49,251 nt of DNA from Clostridia bacterium (GTDB taxonomy: Bacteria; Bacillota; Clostridia; Christensenellales; Borkfalkiaceae). This document shows, one piece after another, positions 9,991 to 34,274 of the stretch. Numbering within the stretch: the first letter of the stretch is position 1; each line of letters begins with the position of its first letter. The translations under genes were made by a program, and so were the position numbers. The stretch spans positions 1-49,251 of the forward strand of contig JAFVQM010000026.1 of the NCBI GenBank assembly GCA_017504795.1, read 5' to 3'. The notes below the pieces were generated by a model. It ran no database searches. It saw only the letters and a list, made by a program, of their open reading frames with translations, and had not been told where the DNA came from.

Positions 9991-10041
9991 AAAATAGTTT
10001 TGTTTGGTAGATGCTTGCATATACAAAAACAAAACAAAAAA

Positions 10042-10174: not shown

Positions 10175-10203
10175 AAGCAACGGCTTTATACCGTTGCTTT
10201 TTT
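10170..10203. terminator. Terminator downstream of the tRNA pair
   Basis: AAAAAAGCAACGG pairs with CCGTTGCTTTTTT around a seven-base loop. It lies just past the CCA end of tRNA-Pro and works in either direction. Confidence 0.8.
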
Positions 10204-10211
10204 GATAAATC

Positions 10212-10288
10212 TGGTCTGAGTGAGAAGATTCGAACTTCCGGCCTCTTGAACCCCATTCAAGCGCGCTACCAAACTGCGCCACACCCAG
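10212..10288 (-). tRNA. tRNA-Pro (anticodon GGG)
   Basis: On the minus strand the cloverleaf is complete: seven-base acceptor stem CTGGGTG/CACTCAG, D arm GCGC/GCGC, anticodon stem CTTGA/TCAAG with loop ATGGGGT (anticodon GGG), and T arm GGAAG-TTCGAAT-CTTCT. A genomically encoded CCA follows. Confidence 0.95.
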
Positions 10289-10322
10289 ATAATTTAGGCT
10301 CACGTAAAACGCGAGCCTTATT

Positions 10323-10398
<76 letters not shown>

Positions 10399-19369: not shown

Positions 19370-20335
19370 TTAGTCGATGTCCACTTTGTTAAGCAACTGC
19401 TCACCCTTATTTCTAAGTTCTTTTGGAACGACGATTTCGTCAAAGGTAAGGTAGTATTTTTTGTGATGAACGGTATAGTAATCAACGAATCTTACCGACA
19501 TATACGCAACCGAGAAGAAAGGTACTGTTACGATAAAGGATACGCCAAGCGTTGCAAAACTCATAATTACCGTAATGGTGATATGAATTAAACGCATAAT
19601 AAAGTAAGATAAAAACCTTTCGAGCATAAGTTTGAAATTTAAGCCCTTGAAAGCATCTCTAAACGCCTTGGTTACACCGCACTTTTCACACACCATTTTA
19701 GCGGGAACTAAACCCACTATCATAAGCCTAAACGAATCGGCAAAAACGACAAAGAATAGTACCACCGTAAAGGTGAAGAAACCTATATATCTTATAAGTA
19801 AAATAAATAGAAGTGCCGAGACTGAAATGATAAAGGTATTATATATAAGAAGTGATAAAACGCAGTAGGTTGCATACCTTATCGCAGGAGAGAAATGTTC
19901 AACAAGCGTTGTAAAGAACTCTGCGTGGCGAAGACTTGACATATGTTCGTTAACGTTTACTGCCATAACGTAGTCACAAATACCTGTAAAGAATTTAGCG
20001 ACTTGAATAATTAAAAGGATAACGATAGGCATCCACATAAACTCGGCAATTTTTGCCTTTAACATAGCAAGCGTTGCGGAAATATTAGCGTTTAATTGTG
20101 CGCTAAGGTCAGCGTTAGAAGTTGGGTTACCCAAAATAAAATTTTTAAATTCTTGTACGGCAAACCCAAAAAAGTCTTTTACTTCTTGGCTTTCAACAAC
20201 GTCCTTTATCAAGATATTAGCAATTAAAAAACAAACAATATACGCAATAACAGTAATAACCGTTCTACTAAAAAGCATTTTGTAGCAAAGCGGTTTATTT
20301 GCCATTGCAACTTTTAATCCGTTTGTAACTTTCAT
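19370..20335 (-). CDS. Polytopic membrane protein of unknown function
   Basis: This 321-aa protein has about five or six hydrophobic segments, including TVITVIAYIVCFLIANI near residue 30, PIVILLIIQVAKF near 105, a long pair around 155-205 and ITITVIMSFATLGVSFIV near 255. The loop FRDAFKGLNFK between the last segments resembles the amphipathic loops of general 'membrane protein' families in Clostridia, but no function is recognised. The start is the ATG at 20335 (GAGG 7-8 nt upstream), not the TTG at 20347. It is probably a host gene rather than part of the viral cassette, because a terminator separates them. Confidence 0.8.
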   Translation of the reverse strand: MKVTNGLKVAMANKPLCYKMLFSRTVITVIAYIVCFLIANILIKDVVESQEVKDFFGFAVQEFKNFILGNPTSNADLSAQLNANISATLAMLKAKIAEFMWMPIVILLIIQVAKFFTGICDYVMAVNVNEHMSSLRHAEFFTTLVEHFSPAIRYATYCVLSLLIYNTFIISVSALLFILLIRYIGFFTFTVVLFFVVFADSFRLMIVGLVPAKMVCEKCGVTKAFRDAFKGLNFKLMLERFLSYFIMRLIHITITVIMSFATLGVSFIVTVPFFSVAYMSVRFVDYYTVHHKKYYLTFDEIVVPKELRNKGEQLLNKVDID

Positions 20336-20418
20336 ATAAAACCTCAAAATTATATTTGATATTTAGATTATATATTATATTTTAATTTTTGTAAAGCGTT
20401 TTAATTACAACCAAAAAA

Positions 20419-20448: not shown

Positions 20449-21414
20449 TTAGTTACCGCCTTTAATATATCTTCTAACCATCGTTTTAAGTTCGCCTAAA
20501 AGTAACTGGACTTCTTCGTCTTCATCAAATTCTTTAAGCGCCTCTTCTTTTGGAAGAGCCATATAGTAATTAAGCGCCTCGTCAAGCATTTGCCTTTTAA
20601 TTTCTCGCGCTTTTTCACCAACTAACGGGCTATTGCCCTTTTCTTCCATCTCGGCAAGTTGGCGTTTTACGGTGTTGTTGTATTTAAGTACGTCTTCAAT
20701 TTTTTTGTTTTGCTTTTCAGTACGGTCTTGAATTTTATCGCTAATTTCTAACGCTTTTTCTACGTTTAACTTGTTAACCGCCGTTAAATAATCGCTTTCA
20801 AGTTCGCTAATTTTGTCGGAATTATCTTTGAGTTCGCTTGCCAAAGTTCTATCTATTTGAAATAAGTCTTTAATCTTTTCAACGCCCAAGCCCTTTATTT
20901 GTTCTTGAACGATTGAAGACCTTGAAATTCCCCTTTTTATAGCGCTTTGTTCAACCTTTTCTTCCGCATCTTTATATAAAAGGTCTAAAACGTCCTTTTG
21001 CTCGTTTGCAGTTTTAGTTAAGTTTTCGTTGCTTTTTTCAACGTCGTTTATTTTTTTGGCGGTAACGGAAGCCAAATCGTCAAGTTTAGCGCCGTACTTT
21101 AAGTCAATACCCTCGCTTGCCTTTTGTTTAATTTCTTCTTCGGTAAGCGGTGTGTACTCAATGGTTTGTAAAGTTTTTTCACTATTTACGCCTTTTAACT
21201 TATCGTCAAGCACTTTTAGTTTTGAAACAAAATCGTTTTTAGAACTGCTAGTTTTAACACTTGGCTCATCGGCTTTTATTTCCGTTTCGCTACTCTCTTC
21301 TACTTTTATAGCGTCTTTTTTCTCTTCGTCGTCGTTAGAATTTGTAAGTTTAATTCCGCTACCTATATTGTGATTTTTGAAGTACTGTAATATCTTTTCG
21401 TGAATACTAATCAT
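20449..21414 (-). CDS. Coiled-coil protein, last gene of the capsid cassette (possible internal/ejection protein)
   Basis: This 321-aa protein has no recognised domain. Residues about 1-15 are a short helix. Residues 25-75 are charged and low-complexity, and most of 85-265 looks like long amphipathic helix or coiled coil rich in Lys, Glu, Asp and Gln. The C-terminal end is acidic and then basic. It follows the preceding structural gene with a 1-bp gap and ends at a strong terminator. In P22-like phages the genes after the tail stopper and needle encode DNA ejection proteins, so an internal or ejection role is a position-based guess. A scaffold or tail assembly factor is also possible. Confidence 0.55.
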   Translation of the reverse strand: MISIHEKILQYFKNHNIGSGIKLTNSNDDEEKKDAIKVEESSETEIKADEPSVKTSSSKNDFVSKLKVLDDKLKGVNSEKTLQTIEYTPLTEEEIKQKASEGIDLKYGAKLDDLASVTAKKINDVEKSNENLTKTANEQKDVLDLLYKDAEEKVEQSAIKRGISRSSIVQEQIKGLGVEKIKDLFQIDRTLASELKDNSDKISELESDYLTAVNKLNVEKALEISDKIQDRTEKQNKKIEDVLKYNNTVKRQLAEMEEKGNSPLVGEKAREIKRQMLDEALNYYMALPKEEALKEFDEDEEVQLLLGELKTMVRRYIKGGN

Positions 21415-21415
21415 T

Positions 21416-22531
21416 TTAATCCTCGCTTATTTTTATTAAATCTCTTACCCTTATTAAAAATTTTCCGTCTAAAAGCGTAATTCTTTCGTCGGCATAACCT
21501 GCGCTTTGCGGTGTGGTAACTCTTTCGCCAACTTCTTGATAATAAAGGGAATTTTTATCGCTATAAGTTATGGCGTAACCGCCTTCGATTTTAGAAAGAT
21601 GATGATTACCGCCCCTATCTAAAACGTAGGTTTCTTCGCTCGTTACTAGTTTGTTTGACGAGTACGCATCGCTTATTATATACACACCCGGAACGCTTGC
21701 TTCGGCAGTTACCTTAACCCCCTTTCTCTTTACGGCTTGATAGGTAAAAGGCTCGCCTTTTACGTAAACGCCTACGTAGACGTTTCCCGTTAGAACAAAA
21801 ATTATCTCTACCCCGTCGTCGTAACCGTATCCGCAAAGAGAAGTCACGCCACTAACTGATAGGTTGGCGATTAAACCGCCAAACGTTTGTACGTTATACA
21901 TAAGAACTTTTAACGCGTTTTGTTCGTCGATAAACGAAACGTATAATTCGCCGTTTATAAAACCTACGATAGACGCGTCTTTTATCTCAGTTAAAATAAA
22001 GAGTTCGTGCAAGCCTTCTAAAACCGAATAACCGTATATAGTCAAAACGTTACCGCTAATTGTCGTTATATAAGTAACGTCGCCGTGAGTGTAGTAAGAT
22101 AATCTTCTAAACTCAGTCAAATACGAAACTTTACCACTAAGCGTAACGTATAAATTACTTATGGTAAACGAAGTTACCGCAATCAATTTTAACGTAAAAT
22201 TTAGTTTGCCTTGCGCTACGGCGTAATCAAAACTAAAACTTCCGTTTCCGCCCTGTAAAAAATCCGTTTTAACCAAGGTATCGCCTATAAAAAACTGATA
22301 TTCGATTTTAATCTCGGTATCCGTTTTTAAGTCGACTTTAACGTTTAAGGTAGAAGTTGAGTTTGATTTACACGTAAACTTTTTAGTAAATACCGTTCGC
22401 CTTTCAGGCGTTGTCAAGTCGTAAGTTAATAGGTCGGTTAAACTTCCTTTTAGGTCTTTTTGAAAGTTTTCAAAACGCTTTTCGAGTTCTAACACCTTTA
22501 AGTAGGCTAACTTTCCGTAATTAGATAACAT
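21416..22531 (-). CDS. Structural-type protein: short helix plus beta-rich domains, in the tail-needle position
   Basis: This 371-aa protein starts with an amphipathic helix (KLAYLKVLELEKRFENFQKDL). A beta-sandwich-like region follows (about 45-135), then a repetitive beta pattern to the end (IYGYSVLEGLHELFIL, IVGFINGELYVSF, VEIIFVLTGNVYVGVYV). This is consistent with propeller or fibre-like blades. Its ATG shares one base with the preceding gp10-like stop, so it is tightly coupled. It stands where P22 encodes its tail needle, but the sequence does not look like gp26. Function unknown; a tail tip, fibre or receptor-binding part is a reasonable guess. Confidence 0.55.
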   Translation of the reverse strand: MLSNYGKLAYLKVLELEKRFENFQKDLKGSLTDLLTYDLTTPERRTVFTKKFTCKSNSTSTLNVKVDLKTDTEIKIEYQFFIGDTLVKTDFLQGGNGSFSFDYAVAQGKLNFTLKLIAVTSFTISNLYVTLSGKVSYLTEFRRLSYYTHGDVTYITTISGNVLTIYGYSVLEGLHELFILTEIKDASIVGFINGELYVSFIDEQNALKVLMYNVQTFGGLIANLSVSGVTSLCGYGYDDGVEIIFVLTGNVYVGVYVKGEPFTYQAVKRKGVKVTAEASVPGVYIISDAYSSNKLVTSEETYVLDRGGNHHLSKIEGGYAITYSDKNSLYYQEVGERVTTPQSAGYADERITLLDGKFLIRVRDLIKISED

Positions 22532-23952
22532 TAAATCGCCCCCTTAACGTACTCTACGAAAACGCTTAAATTACAAATTTCAGGGTTTAACGTGGTGCTT
22601 TTTATTGAAATTCTAAACCTTTCGCCTTGAAGTGCGGGGTAAACTTCTTGCAAGCCACCGCCTTGAAATCTATAGGTTAGTTTTTTATTGTCACACTCAA
22701 CGGTTAAGGTTAGGCTTTCTAGCGTGTATAGGCTAAGTTTATAAAGCCGTTTGAGTTTAGATAAAACGCCAAAGTCGTAGTAAGGCGATATCCACTCTTT
22801 AACGAGTGGCGTTCCGTCTAACGCACCGTTGTTTCTAAAATAAAAAGGTGATTTATCCGCCGAAACCAAGCAAACCACTTTATTTACGTTTCCCGAAAAG
22901 AACTCAAAATCAGTAACCTTTAACCCCTTTGCAATATAGGACGATTTTTTTCTAACGTCGTACACGATAATCACGGTTTCAGTTTTATTGCCGTAGTTAA
23001 ACCTAACCATTAGGTATAAAACGTTGTTTATAAATACGCCTTTACAGTTGTTGTTTGAAACGTTTAGAAGATATTCGTCGTACTCGGGAAGTATTTTAAC
23101 AACGTCAAGCCCGTTAAAGCGGAATATGCCTGCGGTTGATAAAAATATTATAAAATCGCCACAATTAGTTACGCTACCGCCGTAAATTTTGCCAACGTTT
23201 CCAAAAATGGTATCGGTTGAAAACTCTTCTTGGTTGCCGTATGCGGTTACTCTTGAAATGCCGTATTCTCTAAACACGTAAACGTAGTCTAAAAAACTAA
23301 CTACTTTTAGAAGTTTTCCGCCCTCGCCTTGAAAGTCTATAAACCCCGCCTCGGTTAAAGATACTACCCAGTTAGTCGGGTCGAAATCGTCTGAAAACCA
23401 AAGTGACGTACCTTCTCCACCCGTCGTTACGAAAATTCTCTCTTTATGAACGCAAAGTGAAGTGATATTCGGTGCGCCATCTATTTTGATAAGGTTATCG
23501 TTATCAAGATAATAGGTTTCACCGCTACTACTTGCAAAAAGCATAATATCGCGGTCTAAGTAGTCGTAAGATATTGCAATAGGTTTTTCATTGAACAAAA
23601 CGTCGCTTATCTTTTTGAAAGTACCTTTTTCCATATTTGCGATATATAAACGCTTGTCCGAACAGTAGTAAATTATTTTTTCTATCCAAGAACCTAAGTC
23701 GGCGTCAAATCGCTTATAAAAATATACCCCTACAACCGCTATACCTGATAAAGCCGTTAAATCAAAACCGCTAAAACGAACTAAACCTACCCCGTTTTTA
23801 AGCGTTCCGCTAGACGCGTCGAAATTGTATAAAAACTTAGCGGTTGATAAATCTGAAACCTTTTCATCACGAGTACTTGCCATACCGTTTGAAAATGATT
23901 TTACCGTTATTCTCTTTCTAACCACCGTTGGATATTTAGTGCTGTGATACAT
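22531..23952 (-). CDS. P22 gp10-like tail stopper / packaged-DNA stabilization protein
   Basis: At 473 aa its size matches P22 gp10 (about 472 aa). After an N-terminal region with SFSNGMASTRDE, the protein is a run of beta strands typical of a propeller. It contains LWFSDDFDPTNW near residue 185, a type of phrase common in phage stabilization proteins, and VFREYGISRVTAYG after it. In P22 this protein forms a hexameric hub that closes the portal/gp4 channel after packaging. It follows the gp4-like gene and overlaps the next gene by one base. The assignment rests on order, length and fold pattern; no alignment could be run. Confidence 0.7.
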   Translation of the reverse strand: MYHSTKYPTVVRKRITVKSFSNGMASTRDEKVSDLSTAKFLYNFDASSGTLKNGVGLVRFSGFDLTALSGIAVVGVYFYKRFDADLGSWIEKIIYYCSDKRLYIANMEKGTFKKISDVLFNEKPIAISYDYLDRDIMLFASSSGETYYLDNDNLIKIDGAPNITSLCVHKERIFVTTGGEGTSLWFSDDFDPTNWVVSLTEAGFIDFQGEGGKLLKVVSFLDYVYVFREYGISRVTAYGNQEEFSTDTIFGNVGKIYGGSVTNCGDFIIFLSTAGIFRFNGLDVVKILPEYDEYLLNVSNNNCKGVFINNVLYLMVRFNYGNKTETVIIVYDVRKKSSYIAKGLKVTDFEFFSGNVNKVVCLVSADKSPFYFRNNGALDGTPLVKEWISPYYDFGVLSKLKRLYKLSLYTLESLTLTVECDNKKLTYRFQGGGLQEVYPALQGERFRISIKSTTLNPEICNLSVFVEYVKGAI

Positions 23953-23953
23953 A

Positions 23954-24505
23954 TTAAAACCACGTCCTTTGTTTAACTTTTCCTACTTTTTTTATACCGC
24001 TTGAATTTTTTAGCGACGTTATGAATTTATCAAGATAAGTACTTGCCTCTTCAAACCTACCTTTGTATATCAAATACTCGCTAAGTACCCCGTACGCCAA
24101 GTCGGTTTTAGACAGTGGCGAGTGCTCGTATATAAAGGCTTCGTCTAAGCCCGATACGGTTGGTACGTAAACGTACTCTACCGTGATTTTACCGCTAGTT
24201 TTAATTTCGGTGGGCAAAATTTCTACCGACTGAAAGGAGTCGGAAGTGGTAATTTTTAATATTTTGTATGGGTTGTAATGAAATTTTTGGTATTTTACGC
24301 TACCGTTTGTAGGCGTGAACGATTCGGTAAAGTATAGCGGACAATAGTTTATTGCCGTTTCTATTGCTTGGTTGTAAGCAATTATTAAAAGTTCTTTATC
24401 GTTTACGTAAACGTCTTGCTCTTCAGCCTTTCCTATAAGGTAATCGTAAAACCCAAAATCGCCCAGTATTTTAATTGCCGAGCAGACAACGTCTGATACC
24501 GTCAT
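23954..24505 (-). CDS. Head-to-tail adaptor, P22 gp4-like
   Basis: This 183-aa protein begins MTVSDVVCSAIKILGDFG and contains the helical pattern ELLIIAYNQAIETAINYCP. A beta section follows (KITVEYVYVP), then a C-terminal helix pair LLAYG-like / YLIYKGRFEEASTYLDKF. This is the usual look of small head-completion adaptors that dock under the portal. The ATG at 24505 has AAGGAGG 5 nt upstream; the longer frame to 24610 is not used because it overlaps the coat gene. P22 gp4 is 166 aa and has the same position between coat and gp10. Confidence 0.7.
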   Translation of the reverse strand: MTVSDVVCSAIKILGDFGFYDYLIGKAEEQDVYVNDKELLIIAYNQAIETAINYCPLYFTESFTPTNGSVKYQKFHYNPYKILKITTSDSFQSVEILPTEIKTSGKITVEYVYVPTVSGLDEAFIYEHSPLSKTDLAYGVLSEYLIYKGRFEEASTYLDKFITSLKNSSGIKKVGKVKQRTWF

Positions 24506-24523
24506 TTTTGCCTCCTTATTAAA

Positions 24524-24546
24524 TTCTCCGCCATAAGGGCGGAGAA
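24524..24546 (-). terminator. Stem-loop just downstream of the coat gene (attenuator-like)
   Basis: TTCTCCGCC and GGCGGAGAA form a perfect nine-base stem with a five-base loop in the only sizeable gap inside the capsid operon. The T-run after it is short (TTTAAT). Partial termination or RNA stabilisation here would raise coat protein over downstream products. Confidence 0.65.
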
Positions 24547-24558
24547 CCACAATACTAC

Positions 24559-25728
24559 TTACGCTTCGGTAATTCCCGAAATCATAATTTGCGCCCAAGG
24601 GCGTGAACACAATAATTCCGCATACTTTACAAGCGTTGCTCTATACACGGGCTTATCGTTGAGTTGCTTTAAGATTTTACCGTCGTCGCCTTCAATCCAC
24701 TCCCAGTCGCAAAGTTGATGAATGGCAAAGTCGTCGGTGTTGAGAAGATACATAGTACCTTCCGGGCAGAATCTATCGGACACTACGGGGATACCGTTAA
24801 ACGATATAGTTTTATATCCGCCTTTAAGTTCTAACATATCAAGGTTACGTCTATACGTGGACATATGTTCAATAAGCGCTCTTTTAACGCCCGAAGAACA
24901 AAGTATAAAGTTAATTTTTCCACCGCAAGTATCTTCTACGTTGTCAATTGCTCTTTGGATAAGCATTTCAGATATCTCGCCCGCATTTTCTACAACGTGG
25001 GGAAGAATATCTTTGTTATTACTCTTCTTTAAGCCGTATAAGGTGGTAACCGAACTATCGAAAATTGCTTTAAGCCCCGTGAGTTCGTTGCCGTACGCGT
25101 TAGGATAAACGATAACGTCGTCAGGGTCTACCTCGGCTGAAACGTCAAAACTAATTGCCTGAGATTCTTCGTCCGTTCTAGTAACCGTGTAAATTCTACC
25201 GTTTTCTATGTAACCTTTTTGATTCTTACTGTAAATCATAACTTTCATACCCACTTTGAAGTTAGATAAGTTAGTTACTTTATATGCATTTTCTCCCATA
25301 ATTTCGATAACGCCGACAGTACCGTTACCGTCACCGAAAAGCATACGGCTAAAATTGTAGTTTGCCGAGTTCATAAGCGATTCGATTTCGTCGTTAAGAA
25401 GGTTTGTAAACGCACCCGACTTGTTTTGTGACGCTCTTATCGCTTTATCGCTAATTTCAATCGTGCCGTAAAGGTTTTTAAGGTTTATAGTGAATTCTTT
25501 ATAAGTTTGACCGTCCGCGGTGGGTAAAACGCCGTCTTCCGTACCTGCCGAAACGCCGTTATTGTAACCCATACGAACGAGTTTTTTAATTTCTTTACCC
25601 CAAACGTTGTCGCTGGTTTTCTTAATTTTTGCTAAGAACGGGTTGACACCGTAATTAAGATATTCTGACACAACGTCAAGATATGCTGTTTTTAATACTT
25701 TATCTGCAGTTGAAGTAGTAACTGTCAT
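24559..25728 (-). CDS. Major capsid (coat) protein, HK97/P22 coat-like
   Basis: This 389-aa protein shows the usual coat protein progression. An N-terminal helix (YLDVVSEYLNYGVNPFLAKIKKT) comes first, then a conserved core where NLYGTIEISDKAIRAS precedes the long spine helix (LLNDEIESLMNSANYNFSRMLFGDG). An inserted beta domain (about 170-205) and a C-terminal segment with CSSGVKRALIEHM, GIPVVSDRFCPEG and KYAELLCSRPWAQ follow. It should assemble into the icosahedral shell with the scaffold encoded just upstream. The reading frame is intact and its codon use resembles the host's. The nearest GGAG is about 13 nt before the ATG, longer than usual. Confidence 0.85.
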   Translation of the reverse strand: MTVTTSTADKVLKTAYLDVVSEYLNYGVNPFLAKIKKTSDNVWGKEIKKLVRMGYNNGVSAGTEDGVLPTADGQTYKEFTINLKNLYGTIEISDKAIRASQNKSGAFTNLLNDEIESLMNSANYNFSRMLFGDGNGTVGVIEIMGENAYKVTNLSNFKVGMKVMIYSKNQKGYIENGRIYTVTRTDEESQAISFDVSAEVDPDDVIVYPNAYGNELTGLKAIFDSSVTTLYGLKKSNNKDILPHVVENAGEISEMLIQRAIDNVEDTCGGKINFILCSSGVKRALIEHMSTYRRNLDMLELKGGYKTISFNGIPVVSDRFCPEGTMYLLNTDDFAIHQLCDWEWIEGDDGKILKQLNDKPVYRATLVKYAELLCSRPWAQIMISGITEA

Positions 25729-25732
25729 AGTT

Positions 25733-26380
25733 TTATTTTATCTCCTTTGCTTTTTCAAAAATAATGTTTGCTATCCGATTAGCGTCGGATAAAGTTTTGG
25801 GTTTTGACGGCGGAGTTACTAACCCTTCGCCGTTTCCCTTAAATCGCCCGACAGTTGGTTTTGAGTCGCTTACGCCCATAAGATACTCGCGAATTATCTC
25901 GTCTTTAACGGCTTGGTTTTTGCCCGCCGTTTCAAGTAAATACCCGTTTGACGAGTAATAAGATTTTTGATTTTCTATCTCGCCTTTAAGGTAGTTTACG
26001 TACGCTCTTTCCAAAAAGCCTTCGGCTTCGTCGCCCGATTTTGCGGCAATTTCGTATAGCGACGATATTATTTCGTTTGTTTCAGGATATCTTTCCTTAA
26101 AAACTTTTCCCCCTTGAAAGTCTTTTTTGGCGGAATTCTTTATAGATTGTTCAACGCCTACAAGCCTTTCGTTTTCCCTCTCCAACTCTTTTAGTTTCTG
26201 ACAGCGCCTGGTAAATTCAGATTCTAACGAGTTGTAAGCGCTCAGCAACTCGCTCGCCGTTGAAAAACGCCCAAACTCCTTACTACCATCGCCTAAAACC
26301 CCTTCCGCCTCCGCGGTGTGCGAGGTGTTAATTTGATTGTTATCAACTGCCGTTTGCTCAGTTTCGCCCGCTTTATTCAT
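25733..26380 (-). CDS. Capsid scaffolding protein
   Basis: This 215-aa, highly charged, mostly helical protein lies between portal and coat, where P22-like and many other phages encode scaffold. Features: a polar N-terminus, a coiled-coil region around FTRRCQKLKELERENERLVGVEQS (about 55-80), a helical middle, and a basic/helical C-terminus (ANRIIFEKAKEIK-like). Scaffold C-termini often contact coat. It is free of catalytic motifs. GGAG lies about 7 nt before the ATG and overlaps the portal stop. Scaffolds diverge quickly, so this call relies on position and composition. Confidence 0.7.
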   Translation of the reverse strand: MNKAGETEQTAVDNNQINTSHTAEAEGVLGDGSKEFGRFSTASELLSAYNSLESEFTRRCQKLKELERENERLVGVEQSIKNSAKKDFQGGKVFKERYPETNEIISSLYEIAAKSGDEAEGFLERAYVNYLKGEIENQKSYYSSNGYLLETAGKNQAVKDEIIREYLMGVSDSKPTVGRFKGNGEGLVTPPSKPKTLSDANRIANIIFEKAKEIK

Positions 26381-26382
26381 TT

Positions 26383-28263
26383 TTATTCTCCTTTAAGTTT
26401 TTGCTCTATTTCTTCGATTGTATCTGTAAATTGTAGTTTTTTATGTTCCTTTACGTGGCGTTTTATTCTGCCTTTATATTCGCTATCACCTAGTTTTTCG
26501 TTGTCAAGCGACAATAGTTTTCTAAGGTGTTCTTCAACGTGAACGCCGTGATCGTCAAACTCGTCAACCGAAAGGTCTTTTTCCATAAGTTCTAAGTTTT
26601 CCTTTTCTGCCTTTTGTGAGTGAAGCGTTATTATATCTTGCGCGTTTGAAAGCGAGCCGTAGCCTAAAATTTCTAAAATTTTAACTTTGGTTCTTGAAGA
26701 AATTCTACCGCTATCGTCGGTAAGTAGCCCGCTAGATAACATTTCAAGCACCGCCGTTTTCTTTTGCGCGGGAGTTTGAGTGAGTTCGTTTTCGGTATCG
26801 AAAACAATATCGTCGCTAGATAAATCGCCCGAGTTAAAATAAAATAGTTTAACTGCTTTTCCCTCGCCTATACAACGCATTATTCTAGTGTTTTTAGCAA
26901 ACTGGCGATATAGCCTTATTACGTGCTTGCCGATATCTTTTACTGCCGAACGAATAGATTCAGCGGTGACTGAAAGTCTCGTTTCGTCCTGTTCGATAAG
27001 AAGTTCTATCGCCGCGCCCGACATAGTTGACGACGCCACCGTAGAATTTTTAGACACTTCGCTCGTTCCCGAGATAGTAACGAATTCAGATTTTAACCTT
27101 TCTTCTTCGTAGGTAAAATCAAGCGGAACAGAGCCCGAATTCATCATTTGCGGTGGGCGACTGCCTTGGCGGTAAACTATAACTTTACCGGGGGATAAAC
27201 CGTCGTCAACTAAGTCGTCGGTATCGACGGAGCCGTCTTCAACGTTGATAACGCCCATACTCACCCTGTTCATAAACTCGTACTTTCTGTTTTTTACGGC
27301 GTTGTACGCCCTTTGGAGCGGAATAAGTCTTTCAACTAAACTAACCCCGAAAAAAGCGCCCACTTGAACGGTGCTTACCTGCTTGATAAACGGAAAGCCC
27401 CTTTCACCGTCAGTCCCGTTTATATACGGTAGTTCGCCTTCTTCTAAAAGTTCACCGCCCGCAACCGCAACGTATCTGCCGTTAGGATAGTTTTTGTTGG
27501 GTTTTTCGTACCTTTCAATCAATATAATTTGGTCTTTTAGGCTTGCAGAAGTCTTTTTACTTCCACCGCTAGAAAGCCCTTGTTTATCAAGTGAAAACAC
27601 GTCTAGTTCTTCGCCTTCGAAAGCCTTATTATAGGTGGCGTTAAGTTCCATAACGCTAACTGCTCTTGCGTGAATTATGCTTTTAAGGTCTTTAATATCG
27701 CTGGTAAATAAATTGTCGGGATATATTTCAAACGGCGAAACAACTTTAATAAAAACGTCTCCTTCGTAGACGGGCAACCCGTCCTTTTCGCCAAGAACTT
27801 TGCCAAGGCTTGCATCCCACCCCACTTTATAAAAACTAGTTCCGCAGACTTCCGACCAAGCGGTTGCGTCTGAAATGCATTTATCAAGCCCAACTCTTTG
27901 AGTGGTTGAACGAAGTATATCCGACGCGACCACCGCCGATTTTAAGTCGCCTTCTTCTGAACTTACCGCCCTTACGCTCATTGCAGGGCGAACTCTTGAT
28001 AGTTTTGCAAGCCTAGTATCAACAATCGGCGCAACGTGATTAAACACGCTACGACTTTGCCAACCGTAGTACTTTTCTTCTTGGGTAACTTCGCCCGTTG
28101 GCGATATCTCGCAATATTGATTACCCGCAACGTAGTTAAGATTTAACCGCCATTGACGTTCTAAACTACTTCTTTGATCACGCCTAGCAAGATAATCGCT
28201 AGTAACTTCTTCGGCGACTTTGCGCCCGTACTCTAACTCTTTTTCAACATTACTTTTTTTCAA
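26383..28263 (-). CDS. Portal protein, P22-like podovirus type
   Basis: This 626-aa protein forms the dodecameric DNA entry ring of the capsid. Typical portal features include RRDQRSSLERQWRLNLNYV near the N-terminus, VFNHVAPIVDTRLAKL, the wing/stem region with VERLIPLQRAYNAVKNR (about 320-340), and ETRLSVTAESIRS / IGKHVIRLYRQFA helices near 440-465. A highly charged helical C-terminal part may form a short barrel. The start is a TTG at 28263 with AAGGAG 7 nt upstream; the next ATG has no comparable site. It overlaps the zinc-protein gene by 14 bases. The frame is intact. Confidence 0.85.
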   Translation of the reverse strand: MKKSNVEKELEYGRKVAEEVTSDYLARRDQRSSLERQWRLNLNYVAGNQYCEISPTGEVTQEEKYYGWQSRSVFNHVAPIVDTRLAKLSRVRPAMSVRAVSSEEGDLKSAVVASDILRSTTQRVGLDKCISDATAWSEVCGTSFYKVGWDASLGKVLGEKDGLPVYEGDVFIKVVSPFEIYPDNLFTSDIKDLKSIIHARAVSVMELNATYNKAFEGEELDVFSLDKQGLSSGGSKKTSASLKDQIILIERYEKPNKNYPNGRYVAVAGGELLEEGELPYINGTDGERGFPFIKQVSTVQVGAFFGVSLVERLIPLQRAYNAVKNRKYEFMNRVSMGVINVEDGSVDTDDLVDDGLSPGKVIVYRQGSRPPQMMNSGSVPLDFTYEEERLKSEFVTISGTSEVSKNSTVASSTMSGAAIELLIEQDETRLSVTAESIRSAVKDIGKHVIRLYRQFAKNTRIMRCIGEGKAVKLFYFNSGDLSSDDIVFDTENELTQTPAQKKTAVLEMLSSGLLTDDSGRISSRTKVKILEILGYGSLSNAQDIITLHSQKAEKENLELMEKDLSVDEFDDHGVHVEEHLRKLLSLDNEKLGDSEYKGRIKRHVKEHKKLQFTDTIEEIEQKLKGE

Positions 28264-28444
28264 TGCCTTTCTCCTTTTTTAACGCCTTACTAAGTTCAAC
28301 GCTTAGTTCCCTAGCGCAGTCTTGACACAGTTTCAAACTAAAATAGTTTGACTGCCCCACCTTTTTCTCTACGAAAAAAATTGCCTTTTTCGAGCAACCA
28401 CCCATATCGCATACGATAGGTGTGTTTACCTTTTTTATAATCAT
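28250..28444 (-). CDS. Small cysteine-rich (zinc-ribbon) protein in the capsid operon
   Basis: This 64-aa protein has two Cys clusters (CDMGGC and CQDC) about 25 residues apart, a likely single zinc site, followed by a helical lysine-rich tail. Its ATG overlaps the preceding stop in ATGA and GGAGG stands 7 nt upstream, so it is very likely translated. It has no P22 counterpart that I know of. A nucleic-acid or terminase/portal binding role is possible but unsupported. Confidence 0.7.
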   Translation of the reverse strand: MIIKKVNTPIVCDMGGCSKKAIFFVEKKVGQSNYFSLKLCQDCARELSVELSKALKKEKGIEKK

Positions 28445-28722
28445 TGTTCTTCCTCCATAAGCATTTTTATTAAGCGACGCTTTTCCTTTTCTAAGTCTTC
28501 GTCGCTCATATCTTCAACGGAAACGCTTTCTCCGTTTAGTTCGATAAGTAGTTTTAGCGCCGAAACGTCGGGCGGAACGTTTTTTTGAACCACCTTTCGC
28601 TTAACCATTCTAACTTCCCCTGAGTCCTCACCTAAATACTCTTCGGTAACTTCGGTAGAATCATAGCCAAGCGCACGTTTTTCAAGCGCTTTTTTTACGC
28701 TTTCTATTTCTTTATTATCCAT
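28441..28722 (-). CDS. Small terminase-associated protein (possible reduced small terminase)
   Basis: This 93-aa acidic/basic helical protein contains the phrase KNVPPDVSALKLLIEL. It resembles the VPPD-T/S-A-x-x-x-L segment seen near the C-terminus of many phage small terminase subunits. No DNA-binding helix-turn-helix is evident at its N-terminus (KKALEKRALGYDS). Its start overlaps the end of the terminase large subunit gene by 8 bases, with AAAGGGG upstream. If it is the small subunit, it has lost or replaced its DNA-recognition part, which would matter for packaging specificity. Confidence in function is low. Confidence 0.5.
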   Translation of the reverse strand: MDNKEIESVKKALEKRALGYDSTEVTEEYLGEDSGEVRMVKRKVVQKNVPPDVSALKLLIELNGESVSVEDMSDEDLEKEKRRLIKMLMEEEQ

Positions 28723-30148
28723 ACCTACCCCTTTTGTTGTTGTTAGATAACCGCCTTATAAGTCGTTGTTTATTAAGATATACTTCACTATGTGCGGTTG
28801 GTGGGCGGTCGTTTTTAGGCTTAGTCATAATATAGTATCTTAGTTCGTCTAGCGAGTGATCGTCACGCTTTATAGGGGTATCTTCCTTTCCCCAGCGATA
28901 GTTTTTTATCTCGCGAATTAGGTTAACGCAGTTTTTGAAAATAAATAATTTGTCGTTTTTGAAATACGATTTTACCCTATTTATCCCTGTAAATAAATCT
29001 TTGTTAACGCTTGGGTTAACGTTTATTCCGTTATCGTAAAATAGTTCTGAAACGCTTTTAACACCCGCAAGAGTTTTTTGGTTTGCAGCAGAATCTATAA
29101 GCGCGTTTAACCTACCAAAACTATCCGTTCTCCAACCCAAACTTTTTGCTAGACTTTTAATCATTTCAGCGTGCTCTTCAACGGATAACCCTTTTTCGTA
29201 GTGTTCACCACATACGAACACTCGTCCGTCGTAGTCAACCGCGTAAAAGTGGCAAGACAACGGGTTTTTAAGCCCCGGGTCTATGGAAATTCCGTCCTGC
29301 CAGTCAAATGGAATATCGAAGGGGTCTATTACGTGAACGTTTTCGTTAAACTCAGGATACACCGGCCCCGTATCGGTATAAAAAAGACCGTATCTTCTAG
29401 ATTGCAGTTCGCTATCACTCATAGACTCGGTCAGCATTTTTATTTCACTTTTTTTAAGGTACGGATTATCTGCCCACTCGATAAACTCGTACCACACGTT
29501 ATTCGAATTAAACTTATTCAAAAAAATCTCTTCGTATATAAAGGTCAAACCTTTAAGCGGTGTCATAGTGCCGAAGATATCTCCCTTTTTATCGAGAACA
29601 CGCATACGGCACTCGTCGTAGATATCTTTTGGGGGCTCTTCGTCAAACCACACAAAATCAAGCGACGCGCCTTGAAACTTTTCTCTACCTTGGTCGCAAC
29701 TTTTGAAACCTATCGTAGAAATTCCACCAAGTGCGCTTTTAATTTTGATTTGGTCTATCACGCCAGATTTTGGGCTATCTTTTTTTCCAGATAGCATCGT
29801 TATATCTACTATCCAGTCGGGGTTTAGGTATTTTAGAATTTTTTCTTGCGCAACGTCGCGCTGGACTTGTTGTGAAAGTGAAACCACCCACCCAAACACC
29901 GCTTTTTTGTTTTTTCTATACGGGTGAACGCCACGCGCCATATAAAGCGTTTCAACCGCACCACACTCAGTTTTTCCGCTACGGTTACCCCCGAAAACCC
30001 AACGATTACGCTTTTTGCATTTATGAAAGGCAATTTGCTTTTTGTGTTTAACTCTCCCCGCGTTATATCTAAGTAGCGCGTTTTTATCGTACCTTTTTTG
30101 CTGTTCTAACTCTATTTCTCGTATTTTTCTAATAAGGTCTTTTTCCAT
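28715..30148 (-). CDS. Terminase large subunit (packaging ATPase and nuclease)
   Basis: This 477-aa protein has an intact ATPase domain with Walker A GGNRSGKT (residues 53-60), Walker B VWFDEE (166-171) and coupling motif GTMTP (193-197). The C-terminal RNase H-like nuclease has candidate metal ligands Asp290 (SIDPG), Asp352 (LIDSA) and Asp434 (DHSLDELRY). It drives DNA into the procapsid through the portal and cuts it. All active-site residues I can see are present, which argues against a decayed remnant. It is the first gene of the contiguous structural operon; the sequence before the ATG (GGAT) is only a weak ribosome binding site. Confidence 0.93.
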   Translation of the reverse strand: MEKDLIRKIREIELEQQKRYDKNALLRYNAGRVKHKKQIAFHKCKKRNRWVFGGNRSGKTECGAVETLYMARGVHPYRKNKKAVFGWVVSLSQQVQRDVAQEKILKYLNPDWIVDITMLSGKKDSPKSGVIDQIKIKSALGGISTIGFKSCDQGREKFQGASLDFVWFDEEPPKDIYDECRMRVLDKKGDIFGTMTPLKGLTFIYEEIFLNKFNSNNVWYEFIEWADNPYLKKSEIKMLTESMSDSELQSRRYGLFYTDTGPVYPEFNENVHVIDPFDIPFDWQDGISIDPGLKNPLSCHFYAVDYDGRVFVCGEHYEKGLSVEEHAEMIKSLAKSLGWRTDSFGRLNALIDSAANQKTLAGVKSVSELFYDNGINVNPSVNKDLFTGINRVKSYFKNDKLFIFKNCVNLIREIKNYRWGKEDTPIKRDDHSLDELRYYIMTKPKNDRPPTAHSEVYLNKQRLIRRLSNNNKRGRYG

Positions 30149-30206
30149 TTGACTAAATCCAACTAAATACCACCCTTTTCGACATATCTTTTTATATTTT
30201 TTTTCG

Positions 30207-30212
30207 TATAAT
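30207..30212 (+). promoter_or_regulatory. -10 box just before the 30222 gene
   Basis: TATAAT lies only 9 bases before the ATG, with no convincing -35 box and no ribosome binding site between. The transcript would be nearly leaderless. Confidence 0.4.
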
Positions 30213-30221
30213 GATTAAACT

Positions 30222-30959
30222 ATGAAACGGTTTTTACATTTGGCGCTTTTAATAGCGGTAATATCATCAATAATAACTTATCCTAAACACCAAGTTTTAG
30301 CAGAAGAAAGTACGTATATGCGCGTTTTACAAAGCGGTGCTCTAATTTATCACGATATAAATTTAGAAGACCCTATTTTTGAAGTTCCTGTATCCTATTA
30401 CGTTAAGGTGGAATCTAAACAAGGTAGTTCCGTAAAAGTTTCCTACGGGGACGGTAGTAAGGACTGCCCCGTCATTATAGGTTATATGGATATATCTAAT
30501 TTAACCGAGATAGATTACGAGCCAACGTCGCCCTTTTTCATAATTAAAATATCAACTGACGTTTCCGATATCTTGTTTAACGACGTAGAACTCAAAACCC
30601 CTTACTTTAACGTTCCTAAAAACGAAGTTATGTATTACCTTGGCGAGATAAATTCATCAGATAGAGTTCTTTGCTACGTTTACTACGCTAAAAAACTCGG
30701 CTACGTTGACAAAACTTGTTTTAACCCCTTTACCGTAACGCCAAATCCAGATAAAATTGAAGATGAACCGATTAAAACCCCAAGCCTTAACGAAGAACCT
30801 AATAGTGGCGATAACGCGCCTACTTTTCAACTTGGCGAAAACTTGCAACTTTTAATTATTATAGGGATATCGGTGGTATCTATATCCGTAGTTTATTTTT
30901 TGTTCAAACCGCAAAAGAACAAAACCGGCGATGAGCAAAACGAATTTTCTACCGATTAA
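30222..30959 (+). CDS. Exported, membrane-anchored protein with SH3-like repeats, nested antisense in the capsid locus
   Basis: This 245-aa protein has a signal peptide (FLHLALLIAVISSII, residues 4-18, with cleavage likely after VLA). Two related beta-rich repeats of about 65 residues follow, each ending in a Gly-Tyr phrase (IIGYMDIS and KLGYVDKT), reminiscent of bacterial SH3 domains. Next come a Pro/Asn/Glu-rich linker, one C-terminal membrane helix (LLIIIGISVVSISVVYFLF, about 209-227) and a short Lys-rich cytoplasmic tail. It lies on the opposite strand between the regulator-like gene and the terminase gene, and its stop overlaps the regulator stop by 4 bases. There is no ribosome binding site. 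Function unknown; wall-binding is a family-based possibility. Confidence 0.7.
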   Translation: MKRFLHLALLIAVISSIITYPKHQVLAEESTYMRVLQSGALIYHDINLEDPIFEVPVSYYVKVESKQGSSVKVSYGDGSKDCPVIIGYMDISNLTEIDYEPTSPFFIIKISTDVSDILFNDVELKTPYFNVPKNEVMYYLGEINSSDRVLCYVYYAKKLGYVDKTCFNPFTVTPNPDKIEDEPIKTPSLNEEPNSGDNAPTFQLGENLQLLIIIGISVVSISVVYFLFKPQKNKTGDEQNEFSTD

Positions 30960-31417
30960 AACCTAACGTGTTTTTTGCCTTCTTCAAGTAAAGTCTTTTT
31001 ATATACCGCGGAAATAAAGGCAATTTTTAAGTACTTTTTTTGAAACCACTCTTCGTCGTATCCACCCGCTGAAAGTTTATTTGCAAACCTTTCAAGCGCT
31101 TTTATCTGTTTTCTAAAATAGTTTCTCGACGTGTGGTCAAAATCTTCACACTCAGGCGTTATTCCTAAATATTTGTATTTTAATAACACGGCGTCATCAG
31201 GCTTTATCTTATTAAATATCTCGTCAGCGATATATTTAAGTTCGATAAGGTCTTTTCTAATTTCGCCAAGCGTTATTAGTTGTTCGGCTAGCGATACGGT
31301 ATCGTGTCGCATATAAAAAGAATTCTTTGCCCTATGCGTTATCGTGTTTTCAATTTGAGTAATCATGCCTGAAATTTGGTTGTATGCCGACAGTATTGTT
31401 TTAGCGTAATTTTTCAT
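30956..31417 (-). CDS. Sigma-70 region 4-like / ArpU-type putative regulator
   Basis: This 153-aa basic protein begins with about 75 residues of helix, followed by DDAVLLKYKYLGI and then TSRNYFRKQIKALERFANKL. The pattern resembles sigma region 4 or phage late regulators: a helix ending in an LxxKYxxG phrase, then a recognition helix of type SRxYFRKQ. The C-terminal part (EEWFQKKYLKIAFIS) is helical. AGGAG lies 6 nt before the ATG, with a good promoter at 31485-31513. It stands alone ahead of the head genes, like a late-gene activator in a prophage. The DNA-binding role is inferred, not demonstrated by a clear family match. Confidence 0.55.
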   Translation of the reverse strand: MKNYAKTILSAYNQISGMITQIENTITHRAKNSFYMRHDTVSLAEQLITLGEIRKDLIELKYIADEIFNKIKPDDAVLLKYKYLGITPECEDFDHTSRNYFRKQIKALERFANKLSAGGYDEEWFQKKYLKIAFISAVYKKTLLEEGKKHVRF

Positions 31418-31484: not shown

Positions 31485-31513
31485 ATTATAAGCAAGTACA
31501 CACCATTTTTCAA
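31485..31513 (-). promoter_or_regulatory. Sigma-A promoter for the regulator-like gene / capsid locus
   Basis: On the minus strand TTGAAA and TATAAT are separated by exactly 17 bases, ending 67 bases before the ATG at 31417. It is one of the best promoters in the window. Confidence 0.7.
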
Positions 31514-31781: not shown

Positions 31782-34274
31782 ATGAAAAAATTAGCGGTTT
31801 TACTATTAACAATTTTATCGGCGGTTTGCTTGGCGGTATCACTACCGCATTTTTCGGCGCGCGCTGAAACTATTAGTTCTAAAACCGTTCCAACAACTAC
31901 GTTTTTACCGTCGTCAGCCCTACAACTTTACGACTTAAAGTCGCCCGTATCTATCAGTTATTCAAGTTCTGGGTTTATGGTTATTTCCGAGCATATCGGC
32001 GGGACGGACGGAACGTCACTTTTTGATAGAATTTCCGTATACAACCCAAACACCCAAAAGTTTGGCGCGCTAGCACCCCACCCAACAATTTACAACGTTA
32101 CCCATGCCCAAGAATACGGCGGTTACGTTTTCTATCTAAGTAATTCTAGGCTTTATTCAGTTCCTACCACTTCTTTAAGTGAAGAGCCGTTTGAAACGCC
32201 TATAACGAGTTCTAACTTTTTTCAAATTAAAGGCAATTATTTAATTACCAACACAAACAACTCGATAGTGATTTACGAAGTTTCCACCCAAGGCGGTTTA
32301 ACTTTTACTAAAAAATCAACTCATAACTTCACTACTAAAAACGCGTTTATTTCGGAAGAAAACAACGTTTACTATCTATTTGGCGGTAAACTTTATTGTT
32401 TTGACACGCAGTCGTCAACTTCATACGAAGTTGCAACCGTTTCGGTTGACGTTAACTATATGACTGAAATCGGCGAGCATATATACCTTTCGTCAGGCAC
32501 GGGGATATACAAAGTTAAAAAGAGCGCAAATAGTCAAGTTGAACAAATAGTATCGACAGATAGCGTCAATAAACTTGGGCATTTATCAAGCCCGCAAGGT
32601 TTAGCCGTTATGGACGGGGACTTACTTATTGCAGACCCAACGCTGAAATGCGTTCAAGCGATAAACCCGATAAATAGCGAGTTTACCGACTTTGCTATCA
32701 CCACCGAGTCAACTGCCGATTATAGGTTAACTAATAACGCGTCAACCCTATCGCTTAGCGAAAATTACGCCTACGTTTTAGACGACGGAGAGGCAAAGGA
32801 AGACGGTACCGTTTACAAGCGTATAGTTAAAGTTGCGATAGACAAAAATACTGAAAAGCGCTATCAATCGTTTAGTTTAGAGCCGTTATACGAGCAAAAC
32901 GCAAACCTAAACGTTAAACTTGTAACGTGTTCAGATTCGCATATTGCAATTTATGCAGATAAAACGCTTAGTTTATATAACGTTTTAAGCGGAAGTTTAG
33001 TAAAAGAATATTCAATAGATAGCGAATCGGTAACATCACTATTTTACTTAGACGGGGAATTTTTCTATACCGACTATGCCCTTCACAACTTCGAACATAA
33101 CAAAGTAGTAGTTCATAAAATCACACTCCCGTCGCAAGACAATGAACTTAGCGAGATTAAAAACTCAAAACTAAGCGAAAACGCCCTTATAAAAGGCGTT
33201 TGCAAAAATATGTGTGTTGACGTTTTTGGTAGCGTTTATATGATAGTTGACCCGCAAGACGGAGACAGTCAAAAACTTATCAAACTTAAAAACGGCGTGG
33301 CAACTACCCTAGCGAGCGTTAACTACACCGTTAAAACTATAAAAGTTGACTTTGCTAGTAACTTATACGTTTTAAGCGACTCAAACGTTTTATATAAGTA
33401 CGGATATCGCGACTACGCTAGTTATGAAACGTATAATTTTGACACAGAATTTCCCATAAAGGATATTGACCTTAATTATAGAACTAACAAGTGCTACGCG
33501 CTAAGTAATTCGTGTATTTTACAAACGTCTAACGACGCGCTTGAAATTATAAACCTTTCGGCAATTAGCGCTAAAAACCTTATAATCAATCAAATTACCA
33601 CACCTAAATTTATAACGGCAAGTGAAGATGCAAAACTGTTTAAGATAACTCTTAACGATTACGACGAGAATTTTAATTTCAAATCGGTTACGCCTATCAC
33701 TAACCCAACGCCTGACAAAGTTTACCTAGTGGTTGCCGAAATTGAAAATTATTACATTGTGTCACACTCTAATAAACTCGTTGCGCTAATTAGCAAAACT
33801 GATGCGGAGTACTCTCCGTCACAAGTATACGATTCGGCTATAATTACCCCCACCTACTATAACGAGTTCGACATTTCGGTAGAAGACGTGCAAGGTGCTG
33901 AAAGATATTTATCTAGTAGCACGGTAGTATTTTCTAAGCCGATATTTGACTACAATTATCAAACCCAAACGATATCAAAAGGTGAAAAGGTTAAAGCAGT
34001 ACAAAAAGTAACCTTTAACGGAACGGAGTTAACGCTTGTTAGCGATTTAAGTGGCAACTTAAAAGGCTACGTAGTTAGCGGATATTTACAATCGTCTATT
34101 CAAGGTGACGTTGAAACTCAAAACCAAACAATAGAAGTGGTTACTAGTAACGGTAGCCGTCACTTTAACAACACACTTATGATACTTGTTATTGCCTTAA
34201 CGGTAACGCTAGTTGCACTCTTTATAGAAAAGAAGTTGCTTTTCGATAAAGAAGACCACAACTTAAACAAATAA
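31782..34274 (+). CDS. Large exported membrane-anchored beta-propeller protein with SH3-like domain
   Basis: This 830-aa protein has a signal peptide (LAVLLLTILSAVCLAVSL, ending near ARA at residue 28). Over 650 residues of repeating beta units in NHL/propeller style follow (for example LSSPQGLAVMDGDLLIAD near 268 and MCVDVFGSVYMIVD near 478). An SH3-like segment at about 735-775 ends KGYVVSGYL. A single C-terminal membrane helix (TLMILVIALTVTLVALFI, about 792-809) precedes a short charged tail. This places the propeller outside the cell. The layout of signal, beta domain, SH3-like part, helix and tail mirrors the smaller protein at 30222. AAAGGG lies 5 nt before the ATG. No enzyme motif was found; ligand binding or a cell-surface role is inferred. 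Confidence 0.75.
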   Translation: MKKLAVLLLTILSAVCLAVSLPHFSARAETISSKTVPTTTFLPSSALQLYDLKSPVSISYSSSGFMVISEHIGGTDGTSLFDRISVYNPNTQKFGALAPHPTIYNVTHAQEYGGYVFYLSNSRLYSVPTTSLSEEPFETPITSSNFFQIKGNYLITNTNNSIVIYEVSTQGGLTFTKKSTHNFTTKNAFISEENNVYYLFGGKLYCFDTQSSTSYEVATVSVDVNYMTEIGEHIYLSSGTGIYKVKKSANSQVEQIVSTDSVNKLGHLSSPQGLAVMDGDLLIADPTLKCVQAINPINSEFTDFAITTESTADYRLTNNASTLSLSENYAYVLDDGEAKEDGTVYKRIVKVAIDKNTEKRYQSFSLEPLYEQNANLNVKLVTCSDSHIAIYADKTLSLYNVLSGSLVKEYSIDSESVTSLFYLDGEFFYTDYALHNFEHNKVVVHKITLPSQDNELSEIKNSKLSENALIKGVCKNMCVDVFGSVYMIVDPQDGDSQKLIKLKNGVATTLASVNYTVKTIKVDFASNLYVLSDSNVLYKYGYRDYASYETYNFDTEFPIKDIDLNYRTNKCYALSNSCILQTSNDALEIINLSAISAKNLIINQITTPKFITASEDAKLFKITLNDYDENFNFKSVTPITNPTPDKVYLVVAEIENYYIVSHSNKLVALISKTDAEYSPSQVYDSAIITPTYYNEFDISVEDVQGAERYLSSSTVVFSKPIFDYNYQTQTISKGEKVKAVQKVTFNGTELTLVSDLSGNLKGYVVSGYLQSSIQGDVETQNQTIEVVTSNGSRHFNNTLMILVIALTVTLVALFIEKKLLFDKEDHNLNK

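Follow-up and report, generated by a model that had tools for sequence, protein, structure and literature searches.

What is an intact block of phage head genes, set between core genes, doing in the chromosome of a clostridial bacterium? The question is raised by contig JAFVQM010000026.1 (assembly GCA_017504795.1; family Borkfalkiaceae, order Christensenellales), the whole of which is the window of this study: contig C25 of genome G000, 49,251 bases out of a genome of 1.40 Mb that is 83.6% complete. The cassette runs on the minus strand from 30148 to 20449, with the gene for the terminase large subunit (terL) followed by that for the small subunit (terS), a zinc-motif open reading frame (ORF) and the portal, scaffold, coat, adaptor, nozzle/stopper, g21 and DUF7934 genes, and the unit extends past terL to an antisense gene (30222-30959, plus strand) and a regulator-like gene (30956-31417, minus strand). 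An earlier interpretation made from the letters of this stretch, called here the sequence-only reading, had described an intact and compact cassette, and the ORFs, their order and their coordinates are as it said. Its proposal of a podovirus-type, domesticated cassette, like a gene transfer agent (GTA) and kept by selection, is supported by the distribution, the host tree, low ratios of nonsynonymous to synonymous change (dN/dS) and intact reading frames. We are in little doubt that this is a domesticated cluster, vertically inherited in Christensenellales, and consider it probable, from its anatomy, its inheritance and the analogy with known systems, that it works as a podovirus-type GTA.

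Among 200 Christensenellales genomes drawn evenly, the window coat found matches in 110, belonging to 53 of the 103 genera, some of these matches being partial at contig ends; one match among the 110 genomes had an internal stop. All nine genomes of the host's own genus were positive, one by a partial match. Presence is nearly all-or-none by family, with 14 families at least 75% positive (96 of 102 genomes), 15 families without any match (72 genomes), and only four mixed (f13, 3/5; f14, 4/6; f16, 6/12; f33, 1/3); three of the 14 coat-rich and seven of the 15 coat-free families are represented by a single genome. A one-strain element is ruled out by this distribution together with the agreement with the host tree, and the presence across genera that the sequence-only reading had proposed to check is thus found. 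A scan of GTDB species genomes gave at least 591 confirmed relatives, and the best 80 of these, our named loci, include Candidatus Borkfalkia, Christensenella sp. UBA1259, Ca. Scatosoma, Ca. Fimimonas and Ca. Gallimonas. Six of the 80 have the same coat as one of our 72 order loci, which leaves 74 further named loci. One named locus labelled Corallococcus sp. (L119, JAMPAB010000028.1) has a cassette of the Christensenellales type and is probably a misnamed or mixed metagenome-assembled genome (MAG).

The inheritance of the cassette was examined by comparing a gyrB tree with a tree of coat, portal and TerL, both made by a quick tree method, for the 50 of the 110 coat-positive genomes that had both a listed gyrB and a cassette (TerL was available for 43 of them). 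The two trees have 31 of 47 splits in common, whereas 1000 label permutations gave 0.18 on average and never more than 3, and the Mantel correlation between cassette and gyrB distances (r = 0.64) was not reached in 2000 permutations. All nine multi-member families are monophyletic in both trees. In a coat tree of 64 rows, made by a quick method and with many inner forks open, the cassettes of the order stand on one branch with five IMG/VR rows (SH-aLRT 99), one of which, L227, is long-branched; 17 other IMG/VR rows, a phage-type copy (L061) and 11 rows from elsewhere in the class lie outside. The nearest coat among 50,697 phage records is 28.5% identical. These results suggest that the cassette has probably been inherited since before the split of the 18 sampled carrier families.

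The position of the cassette was considered as well. In the window gyrA, gyrB and leuS flank the cassette at one end and dnaJ, dnaK and grpE flank it at the opposite end, which confirms the leuS and dnaJ/dnaK flanks of the sequence-only reading. The leuS gene beside the cassette was seen only in two loci of the genus (L032 and L033), whose stretch reached leuS, and the wider signal for a shared position across genera is gyrB. Fifteen of the 50 genomes, belonging to five families, have it no more than 20 kb from the cassette and 21 no more than about 60 kb; another 26 carry it on a separate contig. This pattern suggests an ancestral position with later moves.

The cassette genes are under purifying selection in close pairs of genomes, as shown by dN/dS from Nei-Gojobori counts, a check that the sequence-only reading had also put forward. 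In the pair G007/G037 (synonymous distance 0.37-0.88) dN/dS was 0.02-0.09 for the six cassette genes compared, including portal (0.02), coat (0.04), nozzle (0.04) and DUF7934 (0.03). In G098/G115 it was 0.00-0.17, except for the antisense gene (0.35). Eleven more diverged pairs gave values mostly of 0.05-0.5, with synonymous changes near or past saturation.

The terminase is the part of the cassette that bears most directly on DNA packaging. TerL (28715-30148, minus strand) matches phrog_2 (3.4e-34), Terminase_6N and Terminase_6C, and the ATPase and nuclease residues claimed for it are present in the motifs GGNRSGKT, FVWFDE and DDHSLDELRY. Across 121 full-length TerL proteins from distinct order and named loci, the Walker A motif is kept in 116, Walker B in 120 and the nuclease motif in 106. 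The small protein of 93 amino acids that follows (28441-28722, minus strand), called a VPPD-type protein in the sequence-only reading, is indeed there and resembles the C-terminal region of a family of terminase small subunits: it matches phrog_309 (5e-7) at positions 197-240 of 319 only, without the N-terminal helix-turn-helix (HTH). Seven other TerS proteins (L032, L051, L053, L073, L124, L138 and L213) likewise match only within positions 189-254, whereas those of the phage-type loci L216 and L226 match from position 131-133 on, with the HTH included. When the HTH segment was sought with a profile built from L060, L216 and L226, it turned up in 2 of 67 order loci (L060 and L301) and 2 of 54 IMG/VR loci (L216 and L226), and not in the other 65 order loci or in any of 71 named loci, 65 of which are not shared with the order set. 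The long N-terminal extensions that TerS shows in some loci appear to reflect overlap with terL in another frame. A TerS without a sequence-specific DNA-binding domain is a GTA trait, a proxy for random packaging, and by sequence it is seen throughout the order set apart from these two in 67.

The arrangement of the genes is also shared. Among 145 distinct coat-bearing loci of the order and named sets (the coat-less L048 is excluded, and many loci end at contig ends), the full order from regulator, antisense gene, terL, terS, zinc ORF, portal, scaffold, coat, adaptor and nozzle to DUF7934 was found in 42; 21 more lack only the zinc ORF, and 7 have an additional relative of the antisense gene. 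Only three, L060 (f33), L301 and L069 (both f13), still have terS before terL; two of them are the HTH-bearing order loci, and L069 shows no HTH in its TerS though terS comes first. We read these three as a less domesticated form, in families of patchy presence. The L060 cassette, from genome G033, adjoins the diadenylate cyclase gene cdaA.

In genus g31 of family f28, the mapped loci (including L326-L329, L072, L075, L077 and L078) have head genes without an adjoining terL. TerL was found elsewhere in four of these genomes, about 40 kb off in G073, about 100 kb in G138 and on other contigs in G163 and G175, and each time it adjoins the antisense gene. Because the two are together in every case after the split from the cassette, terL and the antisense gene belong together, and the g31 arrangement is a GTA-like cluster split into separate loci. 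Two other f28 genomes (loci L074 and L305) retain terL within the cassette; L305, from genome G092, also has a tandem pair of coat genes at 8035-10379. Terminase_6C proved a poor marker of TerL, missing it in G205 and G033, whose loci have one, and its result of 6/18 is therefore not evidence of absence. Taken as a whole, we lean towards a history in which an ancient podovirus-type GTA, older than most of the families that carry it, was lost wholesale in others, and its domestication has left traces in the sequence: terS came to lie after terL and its HTH disappeared, a gene like sigma-70 region 4 and an antisense surface protein gene became fixed next to terL, and the cluster could be broken, in part of f28, without being lost.

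Genes for an independent phage life were sought in the window and beyond it. Pfam scans of 39 window ORFs turned up no family of integrases, phage replication proteins, holins, endolysins or tailspikes, in agreement with the sequence-only reading; this is not proof of absence, because 13 of the 39 have no match above the curated cut-off. The contig has no tyrosine integrase, serine recombinases being covered by the Pfam scans of the window ORFs, and the four tyrosine-integrase matches of the genome (one below the family cut-off) are on contigs C34, C30, C7 and C6. Seven families of direct repeats of 16-20 nt between 18500 and 33000 gave no convincing pair of attachment (att) sites; the only pair that brackets the cassette (D2, at 19585 and 31665, 19 nt, 89%) looks like a chance AT-rich match. 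A single PF04531 match in the genome was set aside as a lysis gene of the cassette, lying as it does on C30 near an integrase and so pointing to another prophage; the integrase and holin-like matches close together at G000:C30:38594-40239 are probably an ordinary prophage.

The claim that life-cycle genes are missing holds for the window ORFs scanned but not for its relatives. Holin-type genes, like BhlA or Phage_holin_1/phrog_297, were found in 33 of 72 order loci with two profiles of four seeds each, and in 29 they lie within 500 nt after the DUF7934 gene, while the same two profiles found none in any of the 80 named loci. BhlA was recognised by Pfam in L068, L087 and L059, as was Phage_holin_1 in L059, and PHROGs gave a holin in L065; L088 (Pfam and PHROGs) and L293 (Pfam only) gave no holin match. 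In L068 (f16) and L087 (f3) the cassette is followed at a distance of a few kb by a murG-like gene, just below the cut-off of the murG model, and in L065 (f6) by murC. Several features that characterize GTAs are observed here: clade-wide vertical inheritance, no integration or replication genes found with the cluster, intact genes under purifying selection in two close pairs, and the HTH-less TerS. The findings that the sequence-only reading had named as fatal to it did not appear either, since the cassette is not confined to a single strain, one coat match in 110 genomes has an internal stop, the contig has no tyrosine integrase and no att pair is convincing.

Faecalibacterium, which we take to belong to another order of Clostridia than the window's host, supplies the nearest comparison. 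FpGTA of Faecalibacterium prausnitzii is a ten-ORF operon of about 10.5 kb and probably podovirus-like (PMC12946183, Nat Commun 2026); a podovirus-like GTA has therefore been published already, besides the siphovirus- or myovirus-like ones that the sequence-only reading named. The accessible text of that paper shows particles of about 40 nm with 8.4-9 kb of host DNA, and describes a TerS without an obvious DNA-binding domain and no replication genes. Compared by this text, the window cassette resembles FpGTA in its genes for both terminase subunits, portal, scaffold, capsid and short tail, in its size, in its TerS and in its podovirus-like character. It differs in that terS is upstream of terL in FpGTA and downstream in the window, and in that FpGTA has a second operon (tail fibre, receptor-binding, holin and endolysin genes) with no counterpart known for the window cassette, whereas holin-type genes end the main operon in many relatives of the latter. 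The same text reports random-fragment packaging in Christensenellaceae (HGM11616, QANA01), in 3 of 25 events, and describes a search for new clusters in four MAGs (Onthomonas, Gemmiger and two Faecalibacterium) and for FpGTA homologues across all scaffolds, with no cluster given for Christensenellaceae; the packaging there may stem from the present cluster, too different to be detected. No named Faecalibacterium locus is among the best 80 of our at least 591 relatives. A literature search, mostly of papers free of subscription, found no other GTA cluster of Christensenellales and no paper pairing Borkfalkia with a prophage.

Other known systems are more distant. RcGTA of Rhodobacter capsulatus is siphovirus-like and alphaproteobacterial, and is likened here by description rather than by gene comparison. 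It is a phage-derived cluster kept by its host, and its TerS appears, in the accessible part of PMC6854486, to be without an N-terminal HTH, a loss that its authors offer as an explanation for random packaging. Podoviruses like P22 and SU10 share models with the window for two proteins: the portal fits those of P22 and SU10, and the coat fits SU10 and NF033394, the latter a podovirus capsid model. They differ in that no tailspike, replication, integration or lysis family was found among the window ORFs scanned, and in the terminase. P22 has terS ahead of terL, so the P22 gene order claimed by the sequence-only reading stands overall but fails at terS, which follows terL in the window and encodes a TerS without HTH. 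Four phage-type IMG/VR loci (L216, L218, L226 and L229) have homologous coat and portal genes, and all but L216 a homologous terL, but they have wider gene spacing and lie outside the coat branch of the order; L218, L226 and L229 carry an integrase, which was not found in L216, and L216 and L226 have the HTH-bearing TerS.

Several observations weigh against a vertically inherited GTA. The cluster is known here from genes alone, from which we infer particles carrying host DNA, and the accessible text of PMC12946183, whose authors sought FpGTA homologues across all their scaffolds, reports no Christensenellaceae cluster. No receptor-binding gene was recognised among the 39 window ORFs (Pfam), a BhlA (PF10960) search of the window's 83.6%-complete genome was negative, and the window's own regulator-like protein has no family match and no detected sigma-like HTH. 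On the side of inheritance, the distance correlation falls to 0.30 for pairs from different families alone, so that the deep branching order is poorly matched, and in 3 of the 24 genomes with both on one contig the distance to gyrB is larger, at about 100 kb, 153 kb and 1.1 Mb. L060 and L301, with their HTH-bearing TerS, lie inside the same coat branch as the other order loci. In two diverged pairs, with dS about 1 or above and ORF starts uncertain, dN/dS of the regulator, TerS, adaptor or nozzle reached 0.42-0.58; gyrB, in those of the pairs that allowed a value, gave 0.00-0.08, and the cassette thus evolves faster than gyrB.

Perhaps the cluster makes a domesticated particle without useful DNA transfer, that is, a shell with other cargo or a killing or decoy particle like PBSX, whose tail is contractile. 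Delivery is something that we infer here, with no receptor-binding or lysis genes recognised in the window, and the FpGTA authors leave the same alternative open for their own particle in the accessible text (PMC12946183). We nevertheless judge it unlikely, given that TerL keeps its motifs in most of the proteins compared; selection that retains a packaging motor together with a modified TerS points to a DNA cargo. In addition, PBSX is described as a phage-tail-like killer (PMC12946183, accessible text), and no long-tail family was matched in the scans of the cassette. In favour of a temperate podovirus prophage, whether still whole or recently decayed, are the integrase-bearing phage-type relatives (L218, L226 and L229) and the phage-type coat copy, L061, that G033 has besides its cassette L060; the L061 coat is identical to that of the integrase-bearing L218. 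Vertical inheritance, the distance to any known phage coat, purifying selection, the single internal stop among the coat matches of 110 genomes and the failure to find a tyrosine integrase on the contig or a convincing att pair make this very improbable. Least credible of all is a capsid-encoding phage satellite (cfPICI-like) that depends on the tails of a helper, as might be suggested by a set of head and connector genes without recognised tail fibre genes. Satellites are sporadic and mobile, whereas this cassette occurs in at least 75% of the genomes of 14 families and follows the host tree, again with no integrase found on the contig. The young prophage remnant and the capsid satellite were the alternatives kept by the sequence-only reading, and distribution, host tree, integrase search and intact frames speak against both.

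A different possibility concerns the origin of the cluster and is compatible with its being a GTA of Christensenellales: it might be an orthologue of FpGTA, one Clostridia-wide podovirus GTA that goes back to a deeper ancestor or has moved between orders. The similar gene set and size, the TerS and the podovirus-like character that the accessible text gives for FpGTA would fit, as would another small order with the coat in all five genomes of one genus (f76, g157; L313-L316). On the other hand, terS stands on the opposite side of terL in FpGTA, and no Christensenellaceae homologue is reported by its authors in the accessible text (PMC12946183). Moreover, of 391 genomes in a class-wide sample 25 matched at 1e-20, 13 of them from the same order and only 12 from outside it. 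We regard common origin with FpGTA as possible but doubtful. No portal or terL was found in L313-L316 with the cassette profiles; in L314 and L316, judged by eye, a scaffold-coat-adaptor-nozzle block lies between serine and leucine biosynthesis genes. Elsewhere, L319 (G541, f107) has a scaffold-like gene and the coat alone among housekeeping genes, by eye with pyruvate formate lyase on one side.

If the cluster is a podovirus-type GTA, the following mechanism can be proposed. The regulator-like gene (30956-31417) would switch on the operon from terL to DUF7934 in some cells, and portal, scaffold and coat would build a small procapsid, which TerL and the HTH-less TerS may fill by a headful mechanism from any chromosomal DNA available. 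The filled capsid would then be closed by adaptor and nozzle. Release would require a lysis function, perhaps the holin-type gene that follows DUF7934 in many relatives and that in the window genome may be encoded elsewhere or not recognised, and the DNA would be delivered to kin cells. A capsid holding 8.4-8.9 kb, as for FpGTA, would not package the 9.7-kb operon whole.

The remaining proteins of the operon are all encoded on the minus strand. The portal (26383-28263) and coat (24559-25728) are as identified in the sequence-only reading, with matches to phrog_156 (2.2e-40) and P22_portal (PF16510, 1.4e-23) for the former and to phrog_14242 (1.2e-52), NF033394 (3.4e-75) and SU10_MCP (1e-5) for the latter. 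The scaffold gene (25733-26380) is present as claimed, its identity given by its position between portal and coat, with no family match; its family was found in 68 of 72 order loci. The gp4-like adaptor (23954-24610, ORF start uncertain and overlapping the end of the coat gene) likewise stands by position; its profile has a weak match to tail tubular protein A (E 0.37), and its family occurs in 70 of 72. For the supposed gp10-like stopper (22531-23952), matches to phrog_3287 (2.2e-9) and, by the family profile, to the solved virion-associated phage protein 8jov (7.5e-7) and weakly to nozzle proteins (E 0.15) favour a nozzle/stopper-like protein, but P22 gp10 was not among the nine matches of that profile. 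With a nozzle and a probable adaptor the cassette is more than the head-only set that had been described. Between terS and portal lies a small ORF of 64 amino acids with a four-cysteine zinc-finger-like pattern (28250-28444; family in 50 of 72 order loci). The structural-type gene g21 (21416-22531) has no family match and recurs in 15 of 72, and the operon ends with the DUF7934 gene (20449-21414; PF25588, 2.8e-28; 61 of 72). After it comes the strong terminator-like stem already claimed (20443-20416, minus strand; 11 pairs and a T run); terminator-like matches number 22 in 12.9 kb against 12.2 in shuffles. The G+C content of the cassette is within the range of the flanking DNA, as had been noted.

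At the other end, the regulator-like protein g31m (153 amino acids) belongs to a family that recurs in 50 of the 72 order loci and 49 of the 74 named ones, some members of which have an HTH like sigma-70 region 4: the homologue in L065 matches Sigma70_r4_2 (8.8e-10), and that in L090 does not. A consensus scan placed a putative sigma-70-like promoter upstream of it (31485-31513, minus strand; TTGAAA-17-TATAAT, 11/12). The antisense gene g30p, between g31m and terL, encodes a protein of 245 amino acids in which a signal peptide and, at the C terminus, a membrane segment can be made out by eye. It has weak similarity to a bacterial SH3-like domain (2krs, E 0.006), and its family recurs in 59 of the 72 order loci and 52 of the 74 named ones. 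The word AATTATA occurs in 28 of 69 gaps between g30p and terL (some from duplicate loci), the maximum for any word in shuffles being 16, and reads as a putative -10 box of g30p. In the window gap (30149-30221) a TATAAT-like box lies about 10 nt from the g30p start codon, suggesting a leaderless transcript. TTTCATA, the strongest gap word, was set aside as a regulatory site, as it contains the reversed start of g30p.

Among the neighbouring genes, that of an 830-aa surface-like protein (31782-34274) adjoins the cassette, and members of its family occur in 11 of the 72 order loci and 30 of the 74 named ones. Homologues of a 325-aa membrane protein encoded past the terminator (19370-20347) accompany the cassette in 16 of the 72 and 15 of the 74. 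Further away, three AraC-family regulator genes (43099, 46576 and 48637) cluster at 43099-49212, beside genes for an FAD-dependent oxidoreductase and an M20 peptidase.

GTAs are known mainly from Alphaproteobacteria (PMC12946183, accessible text). The present results suggest that a short-tailed Gram-positive GTA is a standing trait of many families in a large and mostly uncultured gut order, and they offer a candidate gene cluster for the random DNA packaging reported in Christensenellaceae. The order also provides a large natural series in which steps of domestication, namely loss of the TerS HTH, relocation of genes and wholesale loss, might be dated. If the GTA reading is true, capsid-carried DNA exchange would be an inherited property of many small-genome gut bacteria.

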